Shown here: one piece after another, positions 36,622 to 58,508 of the stretch | How the letters are laid out: each line of letters begins with the position of its first letter | Numbering within the stretch: the stretch's first letter is position 1 | Source: an alpha proteobacterium HIMB114 | GTDB taxonomy: Bacteria > Pseudomonadota > Alphaproteobacteria > Pelagibacterales > Pelagibacteraceae | Direction of reading: 5' to 3' | Assembly: GCA_000163555.2 (NCBI GenBank) | Contig: ADAC02000001.1 | Span: forward strand, 372,001 to 436,000 | Length of the DNA: 64,000 nt | Made by a program: the position numbers and the translations under genes | The notes under the pieces: generated by a model | Databases searched by the model: none | Told to the model about the DNA's origin: nothing | The model's input: the letters and a program-made list of their open reading frames with translations, nothing else

Positions 36622-37893
36622 TTATTTTTTAAGCTGAATATTTGACGAAATAAGCTGTTCATGTTTTGGCATGAACTTTATCCAAGCTTGTGTTATTGCG
36701 TTAACAAATTTTTTAATATCTTCTTTGGAGTGACTTGGGGTAGGAGTAATTCTTATCCTTTCAGTTCCTTTTGGCACTGTTGGAAAATTAATTGGTTGTA
36801 CATAAACTTGATGTTCCTCTAATAAATAATCACTTATTTTTCTACAAAGTTTACTTTCACCAATAATTACAGGGATGATATGAGATCCAGAGTCCAAAAA
36901 TGGTATTCCAGCTTTTTCAAGTTCGGATTTAACTAATTTCACATTTTCAAAAAATCTCGATCTAATTTCAGGATTATCTTGAACAGTTTCAACACTTTTT
37001 AATGTCCCCGCTGCAACTGCTGGACACATGGATGTAGTAAATATAAATCCTTTAGAAAAGCTTCTTACAAAATCAATAATAGAGTTTGATGAAGCAATAT
37101 AACCTCCGGCTAGACCAAAAGCTTTTGCTAAAGTTCCATTAATAATATCTATCTGATCTGCAACACCTTCTTGTTCTGCAATACCAGCTGCATTCTCACC
37201 GTATAGCCCAACCGCATGCACCTCATCCAAATAAATTAAAGCACCATGTTCATGAGCAACTTCAACAATTTCTTTTAATGGAGCAAAATCTGCCTCCATA
37301 GAATATACAGACTCCAGTACTATCATCTTGGGTCTGTTAAAAGGAATGCCTTTAAGAACAGCTTTTAAATGTTCTACATCATTATGTTTATAAATAACTT
37401 TCTCTCTTTTACTTGCTCTAATACCTTCGATTAACGAGGCATGATTTAATTCATCACTTAGGACTAAGCAGTTATCAATTGCTGATAAAATAGAAGTAAG
37501 AGCAGAGTCATTTGCACTATAGCCAGAGTTAAAAGCAAGAGCCCTTTCTTTTCCATGCAATTTTGCAATTTTTTCTTCCAATTCTACATGAAATCGAGTT
37601 GTGCCTGATATATTTCTTGTACCACCTGATCCAGCACCTAATTGATCAACTGCATTTTTCATTGCAGACATCACTTCATCGTTTTGGCTCATGCTCAAAT
37701 AATCGTTCGAACACCAAACATCAATTTCTTTAGTTTTTCCGTTTTTGTGGTGTAGGGCCTTTGGGTATTGACCTGCTTTTCTCTCAATTTCATTGAAGTA
37801 TCTATAGTGACCCTCGTTTTTTATTTCCTGTAATTTTTGATCGAATATCGAATTGTATGATGATTTCCAATTGTGAGCTTTGTTACCTGACAT
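36622..37893 (-). CDS. hemA: 5-Aminolevulinate synthase
   Basis: ALAS condenses glycine and succinyl-CoA, the C4 entry into heme synthesis used by alphaproteobacteria. The PLP Lys is K257 in INGTLAKAFGLAGG; GAGSGGTRNISGT near residue 87 and YLDEVHAVGLYG near residue 221 are family blocks. Length 423 is normal. It is divergent from hemC across 87 bp. FTTSMCPAVAAG carries a Cys-Pro pair (C290-P291), the dipeptide of heme-regulatory motifs. The gene name hemA here means ALAS, not glutamyl-tRNA reductase. Confidence 0.96.
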   Translation of the reverse strand: MSGNKAHNWKSSYNSIFDQKLQEIKNEGHYRYFNEIERKAGQYPKALHHKNGKTKEIDVWCSNDYLSMSQNDEVMSAMKNAVDQLGAGSGGTRNISGTTRFHVELEEKIAKLHGKERALAFNSGYSANDSALTSILSAIDNCLVLSDELNHASLIEGIRASKREKVIYKHNDVEHLKAVLKGIPFNRPKMIVLESVYSMEADFAPLKEIVEVAHEHGALIYLDEVHAVGLYGENAAGIAEQEGVADQIDIINGTLAKAFGLAGGYIASSNSIIDFVRSFSKGFIFTTSMCPAVAAGTLKSVETVQDNPEIRSRFFENVKLVKSELEKAGIPFLDSGSHIIPVIIGESKLCRKISDYLLEEHQVYVQPINFPTVPKGTERIRITPTPSHSKEDIKKFVNAITQAWIKFMPKHEQLISSNIQLKK

Positions 37894-37901
37894 GATGAAT
37901 G

Positions 37902-37907
37902 TTTATA
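37902..37907 (-). promoter_or_regulatory. Likely -10 box for hemA
   Basis: TATAAA on the minus strand ends eight bases before the hemA ATG. A transcript starting the usual 6-8 bases downstream would have almost no leader. The -35 region is poor. Confidence 0.4.
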
Positions 37908-37968
37908 GCTATTCGATTATCTATTAAAATATCTAAATAGACGCACTTATCATATGATTTAAGAACGG

Positions 37969-37974
37969 TATAAT
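37969..37974 (+). promoter_or_regulatory. Likely -10 box for hemC
   Basis: A perfect TATAAT ends six bases before the hemC ATG at 37981, so the transcript would begin at or next to the A of the start codon. No ribosome-binding site can fit between. The -35 sequence is weak. Confidence 0.5.
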
Positions 37975-37980
37975 TAGACA

Positions 37981-39459
37981 ATGTCATTATCTTTAATAAT
38001 AGGATCCAGAGCTAGTTTTTTGGCCAAAATACAAACTTTTATCGTAAAACAAGAATTAAAGAAAAAAATTAAAAATATCAAAATTACAACCAAATATCAT
38101 TCAACTAAAGGTGACAAGAATCAAGGGCATATGCCTTGGAAAAATTTAGGATATGGAATTTTTACAACTTCATTAACTAATGAGCTTATAAATAAAAATT
38201 TTAATTGTGTCGTTCATTCTTACAAGGACTTACCAGTTTTAAAATCAAAAACAGATTATTATGTAATTACAAGAGATGATCCCAGAGACGTACTTTTAGT
38301 TAAAAAAAAATGTTTAAATAAGAAAAAATTTATTGTTGGAACATCATCACCTAGAAGAAAATCATCCGTTAAAGATTTAAAAGATTTAACAGGAATAAAA
38401 GATATCAAAACAAAAACTATACGAGGAAATGTTACTACTCGATTATTAAAAGTAATATCAAAAAATCAATATGATGCAGTGTTTATGGCTAAAGCTGCAA
38501 TTGACAGAATTTTTAAGTACGGAAACAAAGTAGATAAGGTGGAGACAAAAAAATTTTTAAATCTTTTTAAAAAATTTAAACCATTTATTCTACCTTTGTC
38601 AATTTTTCCTACTGCTGCTAGCCAAGGAGCGATAGCAGTTGAATATTTAAAAAATGATAAAAAAACTAAATCTACTTTAAATAAAATTAACTGTAAAAAA
38701 ACATTATCTATTTGTAATCAAGAAAGAAGTCTTTTAAAAAAATATGGTGGTGGTTGTGGTCTTGATATTGGAATAACTATAGAGGAAATAAAAAATAATA
38801 ATTTTTTATTCAGTAAAGGTGTTGATGCTAGAAATAAGAAAGAATTTCATATTAATAAGATTTTAAATAAAAGAAGTATAAAAAAAACGAAATCTATTTT
38901 TCCTCAAAATATCAAAGATTATCAAATGTTTTCAAGAATTGAGTTAAAACTTCCTAAAATAAAAAATTCAACGGTCATTCTAACAAGACCAGATTTTTCA
39001 ATTAAAGAACTAAATAATAATAATTTTTTTATTACAAGCGGTATACAAACATGGAAAAGAGCAGCCAAAGAAAATAAAATCCCACAATGTAGTTTTGATG
39101 GTTTGGGAGAAGATTATCGCCTGCCGGAAATTTATTATCGAAATTATAAAAATATAAAAAAAATTACCTATAAAAAAAGCATGTCGATTTATAAGACCAA
39201 GCAAATTAATGGTTACGAGCTTATTCCTCAAATTAATTCTAAAACCATAAATAATTTATTTAATGCTAAAGTATTTTATTGGATGAGCTATTCAGCCTTT
39301 AAATTAGCAAAAGCTATTAAGCCAGATATTACAAAATATCAGCATTGCAGCGGCCCAGGTTCAACATTTGAGCAATTAAAAAAAGAAATTCCTAAAAAAA
39401 GGTTAAAATTATTTTTTAATTATAAAGACTTTAAAGAGAGTGTATATCAAGCCAGATGA
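37981..39459 (+). CDS. hemC: Hydroxymethylbilane synthase with C-terminal extension
   Basis: HemC polymerises four porphobilinogens. The catalytic Asp is D83 in HSYKDLP, TSSPRR is at residues 121-126, and the cofactor-binding Cys is C259 in YGGGCGLDIG. The family normally ends near residue 310; this protein has 492. The extra part from about residue 325 begins VILTRPDFSIKEL and includes VFYWMSYSAFKLAKA and CSGPGSTFEQLKK, loosely like uroporphyrinogen-III synthase (HemD) motifs. That resemblance is tentative and the domain is short for HemD. Four-base overlap with hemB. Confidence 0.92.
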   Translation: MSLSLIIGSRASFLAKIQTFIVKQELKKKIKNIKITTKYHSTKGDKNQGHMPWKNLGYGIFTTSLTNELINKNFNCVVHSYKDLPVLKSKTDYYVITRDDPRDVLLVKKKCLNKKKFIVGTSSPRRKSSVKDLKDLTGIKDIKTKTIRGNVTTRLLKVISKNQYDAVFMAKAAIDRIFKYGNKVDKVETKKFLNLFKKFKPFILPLSIFPTAASQGAIAVEYLKNDKKTKSTLNKINCKKTLSICNQERSLLKKYGGGCGLDIGITIEEIKNNNFLFSKGVDARNKKEFHINKILNKRSIKKTKSIFPQNIKDYQMFSRIELKLPKIKNSTVILTRPDFSIKELNNNNFFITSGIQTWKRAAKENKIPQCSFDGLGEDYRLPEIYYRNYKNIKKITYKKSMSIYKTKQINGYELIPQINSKTINNLFNAKVFYWMSYSAFKLAKAIKPDITKYQHCSGPGSTFEQLKKEIPKKRLKLFFNYKDFKESVYQAR

Positions 39460-40364
39460 AAAATTTTTTTAATTCTAATAAGCTTAAAGCAAGCAATTTA
39501 ATACAACCTATATTTATCGAAGAGGGTTTGAAATCAAAAAAAGTTATCAAAGGTTTGGGGGATAATTATAGCCATACAATCCAGAGCGCCAAAAAAACTA
39601 TTTCATCTGATATTAAAAAAGGTGTTAAAAATTTTATTTTTTTTATTGTTCCAAAGAATAAGCAAAAAAAACCAGAGGATTTTAATTTTCATTATCAATC
39701 ATTATCTCAAATAAAAAAAACATTTGGAAAACGAATAATTATGATCGTTGATACATGTTTATGCTCAGTTACAACTGATGGACATTGTGGCATTACTCAT
39801 AAAAATAAAATAAACTTAAAAGAAACTCATAAATCACTAGGAATCGCAGCTGATACTTTTATTCAAGCAGGAGCTGATATCATAGCCCCTAGTGATATGA
39901 TGAAAGGTACAACAAAATATTTAAGATCATTATTTAAAAAGAAAAAATTCAAAACTCCAATTATGAGTTATTCATCAAAATTTTTTAGTAGTTTTTATGG
40001 CCCTTTTAGAAATGCTGCAAAATCTTCTCCAAAAAAATTTGATCGATCTTCTTATCAATTACCAGTTAATGACCGCAAAAAAGCAATACAGAGTTCTTTA
40101 ACGAATGCAAAGCAAGGAGCCTCTTTCTTAATGGTAAAACCCGGTATCACATCTATTGATTTGATCAGAGAAATAAAAAATAAAACTAAATTACCTACGG
40201 GAGCGTATCAAGTAAGTGGTGAATATGCCTCTTTACAATATTTAGCAAAAAATAAGCTTGGTGATTTTAGTAAACTTTATAAAGAAAGTTTACTAGCTAT
40301 TTATAGGGCTGGTGCTGATTATATTATAACTTATGGAGCTAGAGACATTGCCAAAAATCTATAA
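39456..40364 (+). CDS. hemB: Delta-aminolevulinic acid dehydratase
   Basis: HemB joins two aminolevulinates into porphobilinogen. The metal-site Cys are C101, C103 and C111 in DTCLCSVTTDGHCGIT, indicating a zinc-type active site; the two catalytic Lys are K175 and K228 (SYSSKFFSSFYGPFR and FLMVKPG). Length 302 is short of the usual 320-335, mostly at the N-terminus. It overlaps hemC by four bases and hemE by 32. Confidence 0.95.
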   Translation: MKNFFNSNKLKASNLIQPIFIEEGLKSKKVIKGLGDNYSHTIQSAKKTISSDIKKGVKNFIFFIVPKNKQKKPEDFNFHYQSLSQIKKTFGKRIIMIVDTCLCSVTTDGHCGITHKNKINLKETHKSLGIAADTFIQAGADIIAPSDMMKGTTKYLRSLFKKKKFKTPIMSYSSKFFSSFYGPFRNAAKSSPKKFDRSSYQLPVNDRKKAIQSSLTNAKQGASFLMVKPGITSIDLIREIKNKTKLPTGAYQVSGEYASLQYLAKNKLGDFSKLYKESLLAIYRAGADYIITYGARDIAKNL

Positions 40365-41346
40365 TCAAAAATTTTATAATGCATTACATCGCATTGAACA
40401 GAAAGTTCCTCCTATTTGGTTGATGAGGCAAGCGGGTCGTTATCATTCGCATTATCAAAATTTAAAAACAAAATATACTTTTGAAGAATTATGTAAGATA
40501 CCAGAGCTTATTTGTGAGACAACCATGGGTCCGATTCAAGATTTTGATTTTGATGCAGCAATTCTCTTTAGTGATATTTTGTTTCCACTAGATTATCTTG
40601 GGATGGGCTTGGCTTTTAATCCAGGACCAGAGTTTGCTAATCCTTTAACTGAACAAATCCTAAATAAAGAAAAAGAACAAAGTTTTTCTGATTACATTAA
40701 ATTTCAAATAGATGGTTTGACTTTAATTAGAGATACTTTGCCTAATAATAAGTCCTTAATCGGTTTTGTAGGTGCTCCATATACTTTATTTAAATTTGCA
40801 CAAAGACATCCTCAATCAAACTCAAATTTATTAAATAATTTTTTACCTGTCATAGAAAAAATTCTCGAAGAGAATATTGATTTACAATTTAGTGTAGATT
40901 TAGATATATTAATGATCTTTGATACTGAAGCTCAACATTTAAATCTTGATGAATTTAATAAAAACGTAAAACCGTTTATTGAGAAAATTGCACATAAGTA
41001 TCCTGGTAAAATTGGATATTTTACAAAAGATATTGATGATGAAAAATACGAAAGTCTAAAGTCTATAAAAGATTTAAAATTGACTGTTGTAGGTTTTAAT
41101 CAAGATATTTTTTCTAAATTATCAAATACAGATCTATCTCTTCAAGGTAATTTTCCCAATCAATACCTTGCTATTGAAGATATTGACGAATTTAAAAAGC
41201 ATTTAGATAATTTTATCAAATATATAAAAGATCAAGATCTAGCCAAAAGAGCAGGCTGGATTTGCAGTTTAGATCATGGTGTTTTAAAAACTACACCAGA
41301 ACATAATGTTAAACTATTTATAGATAAAATTAGAACAGAATTATAA
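40333..41346 (+). CDS. hemE: Uroporphyrinogen decarboxylase
   Basis: HemE removes four carboxyl groups from uroporphyrinogen III to give coproporphyrinogen III. The N-terminal signature PPIWLMRQAGRY is near residue 26 and GFVGAPYTLFKF in the middle. Length 337 is normal. The ATG at 40333 overlaps hemB by 32 bases; a TTG at 40348 is an alternative start five residues later. The next gene, hemH, starts on its last base. Confidence 0.95.
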   Translation: MELETLPKIYNQKFYNALHRIEQKVPPIWLMRQAGRYHSHYQNLKTKYTFEELCKIPELICETTMGPIQDFDFDAAILFSDILFPLDYLGMGLAFNPGPEFANPLTEQILNKEKEQSFSDYIKFQIDGLTLIRDTLPNNKSLIGFVGAPYTLFKFAQRHPQSNSNLLNNFLPVIEKILEENIDLQFSVDLDILMIFDTEAQHLNLDEFNKNVKPFIEKIAHKYPGKIGYFTKDIDDEKYESLKSIKDLKLTVVGFNQDIFSKLSNTDLSLQGNFPNQYLAIEDIDEFKKHLDNFIKYIKDQDLAKRAGWICSLDHGVLKTTPEHNVKLFIDKIRTEL

Positions 41347-42368
41347 TGGCAAAATTTATTGGAAATCCTGATTTTAAACACGGTACTAAATTGAAAATTG
41401 GTATTTTATTATCTAACCTTGGAACACCTGATAAACCTCAACGCAAAGAATTGAGAGTTTATTTAAAAGAATTTTTATCTGATCCCAGGGTAATTGAAAC
41501 ACCAAAGTTAATTTGGCAAATAATATTAAATGGTATTATCTTGAATACCAGACCTCAAAAATCTGCAAAAAATTATCAAAAAGTTTGGACAGATGAAGGT
41601 TCTCCACTTTTAGTGATTTTAAATAAGCAAAAAAACCTTGCACAAGATTTATTAAAAAAAGAAAACCTAGAGTTAGAGTTTGCCATAGGTATGCGCTATG
41701 GAAATCCTAGCATAGAAAAAGGCTTAGAAGAATTAAGAGAAAAACATTGTAATAAAATTATTATATTACCGATGTACCCGCATTACTGTGCAGCTACTAC
41801 TGGTTCAACTTTTGATGCCGTATCAAATGCAATGCAAAAATGGAGATGGGTACCGTCATTGAGGTTTATATCAACTTATCACGATCACCCTAATTACATA
41901 AAGGCATTAGCAAATAGTATTCAAAAGCATTGGGATGAGCATGGCAAACCAGATAAAATTTTATTCAGTTACCACGGTATTCCAAAGAAGTATTTTACTA
42001 AAGGTGACCCTTATCACTGTCTTTGCAGTAAAACGTCAAGATTGGTGAGAGAAGAAATGGGTCTATCAGAAGAATTTGCCATGACAACTTTTCAATCTCG
42101 TTTTGGACCTGAAGAATGGTTGCAACCCTACACTGATAAGACTGTAGAAAAATTAGCCAAAGATAAAGTAGAACACCTTCAAATTATTGCACCAGGATTT
42201 TCTGCAGATTGTTTGGAAACAATTGAAGAGCTAGATGGTGAAAATAGAGAAATTTTCGAAGAACATGGTGGAAAAAAGTTTAGCTATATTCCTTGTTTAA
42301 ATGATCAGCCTGATCACATAAACCTTATTGGAGCCTTAATTAAAAATGAACTCCAGGGTTGGGTATGA
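41346..42368 (+). CDS. hemH: Ferrochelatase
   Basis: Ferrochelatase inserts ferrous iron into protoporphyrin IX. The N-terminal block LLSNLGTPDKP, the ILPMYPHYCAATTGST block, and the active-site His in FSYHGIPKKY match the family, and CLETIEEL is near the C-terminus. Length 340 is normal. Its stop and the hemF start form an ATGA. Confidence 0.96.
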   Translation: MAKFIGNPDFKHGTKLKIGILLSNLGTPDKPQRKELRVYLKEFLSDPRVIETPKLIWQIILNGIILNTRPQKSAKNYQKVWTDEGSPLLVILNKQKNLAQDLLKKENLELEFAIGMRYGNPSIEKGLEELREKHCNKIIILPMYPHYCAATTGSTFDAVSNAMQKWRWVPSLRFISTYHDHPNYIKALANSIQKHWDEHGKPDKILFSYHGIPKKYFTKGDPYHCLCSKTSRLVREEMGLSEEFAMTTFQSRFGPEEWLQPYTDKTVEKLAKDKVEHLQIIAPGFSADCLETIEELDGENREIFEEHGGKKFSYIPCLNDQPDHINLIGALIKNELQGWV

Positions 42369-43180
42369 GCAAAAATATAGAAGATAAAAAAAAATTAACC
42401 TCAAATTGGTTTCAAGATTTACAAAATCAAATGATTGTTTCATTTGAGTCTTTAGATACAAAAAAATTTGAAAAAAAAACATGGGATAGACCAGGTGGAG
42501 GTGGAGGCACTATGGCTGTTATGAAGGGTGAAGTGTTTGAAAAAGTTGGAGTCAATATTTCTGTTGTGCACGGTAAGTTTAGTGAAGAATTTAGAAAAAA
42601 AATACCTGGCACTGAAAACAATCCAAATTTTTGGGCTGCTGGAATTTCAATAGTTGCGCATATGAAAAACCCAAAAATAGCTGCTGCTCATTTTAATACC
42701 AGGTTTATTGCAACAGAAAAATCTTGGTTTGGCGGAGGCTGTGATTTGACACCTGCTGTACCAGAAAATGAAGAAACTAAATCTTTTCACACTGGTTTAG
42801 AAAATTTGTGCAAAAAGAACTCATATGATTATCCTAAATGGAAAAAAGAATGCGATGAATATTTTTATTTAAAACATAGAAAAGAACCCAGGGGTGTAGG
42901 AGGTATTTTCTTTGATTATTTAAATGAAGATAATTTTGAAAACGAATTTGATTTTATTAAAAATTTAGGGGTTTATTTTAAAGATTTTGTTCATAACAAT
43001 GCTGAAAGAAAAAAAGATTTATCTTATAATGAAGAAGATATGAAAAAATTAATGCACAAAAGATCTAGATATGTTGAATTTAATTTATTGTATGACAGAG
43101 GTACTTTGTTTGGCTTAAAAACAGATGGAAATGTTGAGGCTATTTTAATGTCAATGCCTCCAAAAGCGGAGTGGAATTGA
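42365..43180 (+). CDS. hemF: Oxygen-dependent coproporphyrinogen III oxidase
   Basis: HemF oxidatively decarboxylates coproporphyrinogen III to protoporphyrinogen IX with molecular oxygen. The blocks RPGGGGGTMAVMKG, WFGGGCDLTP and FNLLYDRGTLFGL near the C-terminus are diagnostic. Length is 271 residues from the ATG at 42365, which overlaps the hemH stop; an in-frame TTG two codons earlier is less likely. Only the oxygen-dependent enzyme is present here; no hemN is seen. Confidence 0.96.
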   Translation: MSKNIEDKKKLTSNWFQDLQNQMIVSFESLDTKKFEKKTWDRPGGGGGTMAVMKGEVFEKVGVNISVVHGKFSEEFRKKIPGTENNPNFWAAGISIVAHMKNPKIAAAHFNTRFIATEKSWFGGGCDLTPAVPENEETKSFHTGLENLCKKNSYDYPKWKKECDEYFYLKHRKEPRGVGGIFFDYLNEDNFENEFDFIKNLGVYFKDFVHNNAERKKDLSYNEEDMKKLMHKRSRYVEFNLLYDRGTLFGLKTDGNVEAILMSMPPKAEWN

Positions 43181-43596
43181 TGTACGAGTGGATTAAAGTT
43201 TTACATATTATTTCTTTTGTAGCTTGGTTTGCAGGACTATTTTATCTACCAAGATTATTTGTTTATCATACAGAAAATGCAGATCACGATCATACAAGAA
43301 AAACATTAGAAACAATGGAATATAAGTTGCTTAAATATATCATGAACCCAGCGATGATAGCGACTTGGGTTTTTGGAATTGGATTAATCCATTATGTTGG
43401 TTCAGCGGGGTGGTTGCATGCTAAAATTACCTTAGTTGTAATTTTGTCTGCATTTCATATGTATTTAGGAGTTATTAGAAAGAAATTAATCCACGAACCA
43501 TCAAAATATTCTTCTAAATATTTTAGATATATTAATGAAGTTCCAACTGTACTTTTAATTTTAATTGTAATTTTAGTAGTGGTTAAACCATTCTAA
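43180..43596 (+). CDS. hemJ: Protoporphyrinogen IX oxidase HemJ
   Basis: HemJ (UPF0093) oxidises protoporphyrinogen IX and replaces HemG or HemY in many alphaproteobacteria. The 138-residue membrane protein starts MYEWIKVLHIISFVAWFAGL, with a conserved His in the first segment and FYLPRLFVYH after it, and has about four segments in all. The ATG overlaps the hemF stop (TGATG). Position at the end of the hem genes supports the role. Confidence 0.93.
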   Translation: MYEWIKVLHIISFVAWFAGLFYLPRLFVYHTENADHDHTRKTLETMEYKLLKYIMNPAMIATWVFGIGLIHYVGSAGWLHAKITLVVILSAFHMYLGVIRKKLIHEPSKYSSKYFRYINEVPTVLLILIVILVVVKPF

Positions 43597-57557: not shown

Positions 57558-58001
57558 ATGATTAAAAAATTTAAAGCTGCTCTTTCAAAGTACCCAACCG
57601 GTATTGCCTGTGTACTAAGTAAGAATATAAAAAACAATTATAATGGAATTATAATTAATTCATTTTCTTCAGTTTCATTAAAACCTCTCATGGTTTTGTG
57701 GAGTTTGGATATTAAATCAAGTAAGTTTAAAAATTTTAAGAGTTCAAAAAAACAAACTGTAGTACTATTAAGTCAAAATCAAAAGAAATTAGTTAATAAA
57801 ATGGCATTTCAAAATGATGAAATATCAGGTTTGGAATATAAAAAAATTATAGATAATTCTGTTTTTTCTCTTCAATGTAATAAATTCAAAGAAATTAAAG
57901 CTGGTGATCATTTTACCATATTTTTAAAGGTAAAAAAAATATTGGTTAATTCAAAGACAAAACCATTATTATATTACCAAAAAAAAATTCTAACATTTTA
58001 A
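57558..58001 (+). CDS. Flavin reductase-like domain protein
   Basis: The 147-residue protein resembles the flavin reductase (DIM6/NTAB) family that binds FMN. It opens KKFKAALSKYPTGIACVLS, the usual FRxALxxFPTGVxV pattern, with a SFSSVSLKPLMVLWSL block near residue 37. Length is short for the family, so substrate and reductase partner are unknown. The stop lies in the AT palindrome at 57992-58006. Confidence 0.75.
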   Translation: MIKKFKAALSKYPTGIACVLSKNIKNNYNGIIINSFSSVSLKPLMVLWSLDIKSSKFKNFKSSKKQTVVLLSQNQKKLVNKMAFQNDEISGLEYKKIIDNSVFSLQCNKFKEIKAGDHFTIFLKVKKILVNSKTKPLLYYQKKILTF

Positions 58002-58016
58002 ATGTTAATAAGTATT

Positions 58017-58041
58017 TTCTCGTATTGAGAATATTTTTTTT
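58017..58041 (+). terminator. Weak hairpin with T-run before rpiB
   Basis: A five-bp stem (TTCTC, loop GTATT, GAGAA) is followed by a run of T. It is AT-rich and short, but it is the only terminator-like shape in the 60-bp gap before rpiB. An AT palindrome, AACATTTTAAATGTT, lies just upstream at 57992-58006. Confidence 0.35.
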
Positions 58042-58061
58042 ATATATAAATATTAATCACT

Positions 58062-58508
58062 TTGTCTAAAACTTTTATAACTAAAAAAATATTCATATCT
58101 TCTGACCATGCCGGTTATGATCTTAAAAAATATTTAATTAATCAGATTTCAAAGAAAAAAATTAAAATTATAGATTTAGGTCCATTTTCAAAAGATTCAG
58201 TTGATTACCCGGACTTTGCTAAAAAACTATCTAAGAAAATAACCAATATTAATTTTGGAATTCTGGTTTGCGGAACTGGTATTGGAATGTCAATTATGGC
58301 GAATCGTTATAGAAAAGTCAGAGCATCATTGGTCTTTAATTCTAAAACAGCGAAATTAGCAAGAGAACATAACAATGCTAATGTTTTGGTGCTAGGTTCA
58401 AGGGTGACAAATAAAAAAAATGCTTTAAAAATAACGGAAGTTTTCTTTAAAACAAAATTTTTAAAAGGAAGGCACTTAAGAAGGGTAAAGAAATTTAATA
58501 ATGTCTAA
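58062..58508 (+). CDS. rpiB: Ribose-5-phosphate isomerase B
   Basis: RpiB interconverts ribose-5-phosphate and ribulose-5-phosphate. The N-terminal [16 protein letters not shown] and [24 protein letters not shown] with the catalytic Cys are diagnostic. Length 148. The start is TTG at 58062, since no ATG or GTG lies between it and the conserved core. It overlaps glyA by eight bases. Confidence 0.93.

Follow-up and report, generated by a model that had tools for sequence, protein, structure and literature searches.

The heme genes of the SAR11 bacterium HIMB114 raise the question of how hydroxymethylbilane is converted to uroporphyrinogen III in a genome in which no separate hemD is recognised. 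Hydroxymethylbilane that closes non-enzymatically yields uroporphyrinogen I, a dead end for heme synthesis, so that the uroporphyrinogen-III synthase (UroS, HemD) step is needed wherever the pathway is otherwise complete. A sequence-only reading of the window, the stretch of 64,000 nucleotides that was analysed, had drawn attention to a HemC of 492 residues with a C-terminal extension. It had offered three options for this extension: a minimal uroporphyrinogen-III synthase filling the HemD step, an allosteric remnant, or something new. As checks it had named a structure search and a search for hemD in the rest of the genome. Here, we report the outcome of both and relate the gene, named hemCD (hemC* in the gene orders below; Table 1), to its counterparts in other bacteria. 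The product of the gene is very probably a bifunctional enzyme of the Leptospira type, which combines hydroxymethylbilane synthase with a putative uroporphyrinogen-III synthase (cosynthase) activity in its second half.

Table 1. Heme genes, parts of the fused protein and one emptied site, in window positions
Feature	Positions	Strand	Remarks
hemA (5-aminolevulinate synthase)	36622..37893	-	divergent from hemCD; 75% identity to HIMB59 type, 50% to LD12 HemA
hemCD (hemC*)	37981..39459	+	HMBS fused to probable compact uroporphyrinogen-III synthase; 492 aa; ATG start
HemC (porphobilinogen deaminase) part	37981..38892	+	residues 1-304
UroS-like extension	38893..39456	+	residues 305-492, core fold ~330-490
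hemB	39456..40364	+	4-bp overlap with hemCD; 48% identity to Leptospira, 60-63% to HIMB59 type, <=38% to other Pelagibacterales
hemE	40333..41346	+	42% to Leptospira, 55-57% to HIMB59 type, 29-36% to sister SAR11
hemH (ferrochelatase)	41346..42368	+	65-66% to HIMB59 type, 50-51% to sister SAR11
hemF (coproporphyrinogen III oxidase)	42359..43180	+	63-64% to HIMB59 type
hemJ (UPF0093 protoporphyrinogen oxidase type)	43171..43596	+	69-71% to HIMB59 type, 46-47% to sister SAR11
Empty ancestral hemB site	58002..58061	.	60 bp flanked by a small ORF and an rpiB-like gene (57558-58001, 58062-58508); compared with L169, L171

A long HemC in a genome without a recognisable separate hemD

The coordinates of the open reading frame and the coverage by library models agree with the description of a 492-residue HemC that is extended at its C-terminus. 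PF01379 covered residues 5-230 in the Pfam search and TIGR00212 covered residues 5-292 in the NCBIfam search (180 bits against a cut-off of 164), and the last ~180 residues had no Pfam or NCBIfam match at E<=10. The extension, of about 165-188 residues, contains VILTRPDF, SYSAFKLAKA and CSGPGSTFEQLKK, all of which had been cited for it. In the HemC part, Asp83 (38227-38229) and Cys259 (38755-38757) were invariant in an alignment of 14 proteins; by position, we take the former for the catalytic Asp of HemC and the latter for the Cys that binds dipyrromethane. The length of the gene is not a frameshift artefact, since a protein of 492 residues is conserved in every member of the genus with an intact gene, at 73-93% identity. 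Six of the eight genomes of the genus gave a hemCD match, five of them full length (73-93% identity outside the query's own) and one a frameshifted copy from a single cell. In this single-cell genome, AG-895-L23 (L065, L066, L070), the frameshift falls near codon 117 and both parts are otherwise well conserved; it is possibly a sequencing error. A pattern scan of genome contigs, made with short patterns from the genus-specific extension, matched the same genus only.

The hem block (36622-43596, assigned by Pfam) consists of hemA on the minus strand followed by the tightly packed hemC*, hemB, hemE, hemH, hemF and hemJ on the plus strand (37981-43596). That a stand-alone hemD is missing from it had been noted before and holds genome-wide. 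The HIMB114 genome is a single contig of 1,237,371 bp with only one hemC and one hemB, and a profile search of the whole of it gave no HEM4 (PF02602) match above the cut-off. One match below the cut-off (G000:C1:11877, E=0.03) lies inside folC and was rejected as a chance hit. Another genome of the genus (G001) gave the same PF02602 picture. Among the sampled genomes of the order, HEM4 was found above the cut-off in 176 of 197, and in the sister SAR11 examined hemD adjoins hemC, between tsaD and an mscS-like gene. Nine Pelagibacterales genomes that are 89-97% complete (G042, G111, G119, G128, G137, G148, G162, G165 and G185) had neither a hemC match to the HIMB114 protein nor a HEM4 match, which may reflect assembly gaps or a real loss of heme synthesis.

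Relationship of the extension to uroporphyrinogen-III synthase

The closest described relative of the whole protein was found in Leptospira. Residues 1-460 aligned with the bifunctional porphobilinogen deaminase/uroporphyrinogen synthase of Leptospira interrogans (tblastn against plasmid records, E=3e-27; locus L145), and the extension matched the Leptospira extension with E=3e-15. Searched alone in 7.3 Gb of plasmid records, the extension found Leptospira only, even at E<=10. Leptospira HemC and HemD are reported to be one bifunctional enzyme (PMC11426443), and both activities of the fusion are reported in the passage of Scott et al. 2021 (PMC8698207) that cites Guegan et al. 2003 (PMID 12864856). 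The C-terminal domain of Leptospira is likewise without a Pfam match, and the absence of a PF02602 match thus does not separate active from inactive domains here.

Compared directly with HemD, the extension was matched by none of the Pfam and NCBIfam HemD models, and its sequence gave no meaningful match to PDB chains. A profile of the extension family scored 26.4 against a SAR11 HemD profile, where the maximum among 200 column shuffles was 20.2, and the two profiles aligned colinearly with an hhalign probability of ~11%. Earlier and narrower HMM and profile comparisons with SAR11 HemD had been sub-significant (2 of 300 shuffles were as good); the comparison is clear only with the wider family, and it carries less weight than the structure search. 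Taken by itself, the sequence gives no more than a suggestive similarity between the extension and HemD. The residues of the extension that were invariant in the 14-protein alignment are Gly354, Trp358, Asp373, Gly376, Tyr412, Trp434, Ser436, Phe440 and the Gly-Pro-Gly-x-Thr loop at 458-462. In the weak profile alignment, Tyr412 (39214-39216) falls on the Tyr of the HemD 'vvYrt' strands, which we take to be conserved and near the active site, and the loop (within HCSGPGST, 39343-39366) aligns with the HemD motif 'iGpxT'.

A model of residues 305-492 was made with AlphaFold from 13 family sequences, with no HemD and no Leptospira row in the alignment, and because HemD was absent a structural match to it constitutes an independent test. 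The model had a mean pLDDT of 86.6 and a pTM of 0.76, while a full-length model from five near-identical sequences reached a pLDDT of 35 and was unusable. When the extension model was compared with the PDB by Foldseek, ranks 1-11 were all UroS (probability 0.99-1.00, best E 4.7e-5) and came from five organisms, namely T. thermophilus, Shewanella, human, P. syringae and H. pylori. At rank 12 the probability fell to 0.35, and nothing but UroS was significant. The predicted structure of the extension is, in this respect, HemD-like. TM-scores against UroS were 0.35-0.61 with an rmsd of 5-9 Å, and the best by query length (0.61) was obtained with the H. pylori enzyme of 213 residues. The extension is 40-80 residues shorter than the solved HemDs (213-260 residues among the PDB matches). 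The shorter domain, the moderate TM-scores and the rmsd together indicate that the inter-domain geometry is reduced or different. As read from the DSSP assignment of the model, the first strand appears to be followed by coil where normal HemD has its first helix, and the second domain appears to have fewer elements.

Within the genus, dN/dS was 0.04-0.10 for the extension and 0.10-0.13 for the HemC part, and in no pair was the value of the extension the higher one. The extension is thus under strong purifying selection, and a useless tail would not have been kept. These values bear on the possibility that the extension is what remains of a decayed HemD and now serves in regulation or structure (allosteric), in which case uroporphyrinogen III would come from an unrecognised enzyme elsewhere or external heme would be taken up. 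Such a remnant would fit the loss, in the model secondary structure, of helices found in normal HemD, and divergent HemDs can indeed escape profiles, as shown by two of 14 control genomes that fell below the PF02602 cut-off. We nevertheless regard it as unlikely, since selection on the extension is as strong as on the catalytic core, the invariant residues are kept across alphaproteobacterial families and Leptospira, and the rest of the heme pathway is intact in the same operon. Furthermore, the native hemC-hemD pair is gone from its ancestral site, which leaves the fusion as the only candidate, and the Leptospira homologue is active according to the same passage of PMC8698207. Purifying selection and the homology to the second half of Leptospira HemC/HemD leave both the allosteric remnant and the something new of the sequence-only reading unsupported. 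It is even more improbable that the UroS-like domain merely holds or channels hydroxymethylbilane, lacks cosynthase activity and still needs a partner. Its reduced size, its covalent tether to HemC and an activity that we infer would be compatible with such a module, but no partner hemD was detected in the genome and the Leptospira fusion carries both activities in the account of PMC8698207.

A compact uroporphyrinogen-III synthase domain is the most likely identity of the extension. The option of a minimal enzyme filling the HemD step gains its support from the search of the rest of the genome, which found no hemD, together with the HemD-like predicted structure. In the proposed pathway, the HemC part would convert four porphobilinogen into hydroxymethylbilane, which may be handed over between the tethered HemC and UroS-like domains. 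The C-terminal domain, with its reduced two-domain HemD fold, would then close hydroxymethylbilane with ring D inverted to give uroporphyrinogen III, and the products of hemE, hemF, hemJ and hemH of the same operon would take uroporphyrinogen III to heme.

Distribution of the fusion and origin of the operon

Fused HemCD is not confined to the genus. A search of 385 Alphaproteobacteria genomes with the extension profile returned nine further genomes from five other families, with a HemC of 492-516 residues that adjoins hemB and/or hemE wherever the stretch reaches. Two deep-branching fusions (L165 and L166, of families f116 and f127) have a shorter end and a CGPGKT motif, and the cluster in L166 also harbours hemN- and hemG-like genes, as does Leptospira. 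Viral contigs were checked for a viral origin of the fusion and nothing was found.

In trees of HemB and of the HemC core, the genus grouped with bacteria of the HIMB59 type (100/100), and both fell within a clade (100/99) made up of Leptospira and the alphaproteobacteria that carry the fusion. All sampled SAR11 and the remaining Pseudomonadota lay elsewhere in the trees. Leptospira is the sole sampling outside the Pseudomonadota in these trees, for which the tree program warns of long branches. Judged by sequence and gene order, the hemA/hemCD-hemB-hemE-hemH-hemF-hemJ block is a horizontal replacement from another marine lineage, because it is closer to the HIMB59 type (43-75% identity, same gene order) than to sister SAR11. 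For HemC* the identity to the HIMB59 type was 43-48%, and for HemB the identity to sister SAR11 was 34-38%.

The sites of the native genes are informative in this regard. Between tsaD and the mscS-like gene HIMB114 has 66 bp only, the ancestral hemC-hemD pair being gone from a locus that is otherwise intact. Orthologues of the genes that flank the empty hemB site (Table 1) enclose hemB in IMCC9063 and hemB together with hemA in LD12 (genome G007, presumably that of the LD12 isolate), and in sister SAR11 the native hemE-hemH-hemJ are found at yet another locus. Emptied native sites and an imported operon imply that a scattered native pathway was replaced. The adjacent and overlapping frames of hemC and hemD in sister SAR11 could be fused by a frameshift, and the extension might on those grounds be a SAR11 HemD that was fused in place and shrank within the genus, rather than part of an acquired Leptospira-type protein. 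This scenario was rejected and is, in our judgement, extremely improbable. It is contradicted by the HemC-core and HemB trees, which place the genus with the HIMB59-type, alphaproteobacterial and Leptospira fusions (100/99), by the tsaD-mscS locus that is intact save for the missing pair, and by an operon order identical to that of HIMB59.

An acetyl-CoA synthetase-like protein (L099:1516-3732, minus strand, on G000:C1; also L078 and L076) was noted for its N-terminus, which is long, rich in lysine and built of tandem (KKVSKKKKSVKKAK)-like repeats. The same acetyl-CoA synthetase-like gene has differing lysine-rich tails in other SAR11.

Beyond the acquisition of a Leptospira-type fusion by this genus, the domain might be the founder of a separate family of minimal UroS. 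Such a domain would have lost roughly between a quarter and a third of the canonical fold because it works only when tethered to HemC, from which it receives hydroxymethylbilane directly. Transfers of the operon between streamlined Alphaproteobacteria of the sea would have spread it, and its spread would then explain a share of 'missing hemD' annotations. We put this wider proposal forward tentatively, as possible rather than probable.

Significance and comparison with known systems

In annotated heme pathways the HemD step is often 'missing', and here it appears to be filled by a domain that Pfam and NCBIfam do not see. As this domain is invisible to library models and common to Leptospira and several families of small-genome Alphaproteobacteria, automatic annotation will wrongly score UroS as absent. 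The locus further shows clearly how, within SAR11, a single horizontally acquired operon displaced an essential pathway whose genes had been scattered; at least two of their former sites can be seen to be empty. The compact fold indicates how small a part of HemD may be enough, and it makes it possible to test whether hydroxymethylbilane, which is unstable, is passed on directly. The HemCD kind of fusion is already known from Leptospira. Its presence in SAR11 and several alphaproteobacterial families, the predicted UroS fold of the short domain and the operon replacement are, as far as we have seen, new; the literature that was searched gave no earlier report, which is no proof that none exists.

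Native SAR11 (IMCC9063, LD12 and other Pelagibacterales) carry out the same two reactions with separate proteins, a HemC of ~305-325 residues and a HemD of ~235-250 residues, encoded by adjacent genes between tsaD and the mscS-like gene, the site that is emptied in the HIMB114 genus. Canonical HemD (PF02602; PDB 3d8r, 3mw8, 1jr2, 3re1 and 3p9z) and the HIMB114 extension have the predicted fold in common. In both, a TRP strand, a TSG/TSanav strand, an S-x-S-x-F strand and a GPxT loop occur in colinear order, and the strand with the conserved Tyr may correspond as well. The extension differs by its length, about 165-188 residues against 213-260, and by the missing N-terminal helix and several missing elements of domain 2.

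The Leptospira HemC/HemD (L. interrogans WP_000086821.1, 542 aa) has the same domain order, and its homology to the HIMB114 protein, at 28-33% identity, extends along the chain and takes in the short C-terminal domain. In Leptospira the fusion is followed by hemB and further on by hemE, both of the same type as in HIMB114. Where HIMB114 has hemH-hemF-hemJ downstream and a divergent ALA synthase gene, however, the Leptospira locus carries hemL, hemN and hemG together with a sensor/regulator pair. In the operon of the HIMB59 type, another family of Alphaproteobacteria (G625, 1,410,127 bp; L158), the genes hemC*-hemB-hemE-hemH-hemF-hemJ follow one another exactly as in HIMB114, and hemA likewise lies upstream on the opposite strand. 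This operon differs from that of HIMB114 in that hemA and hemC* are separated by one or two additional genes.
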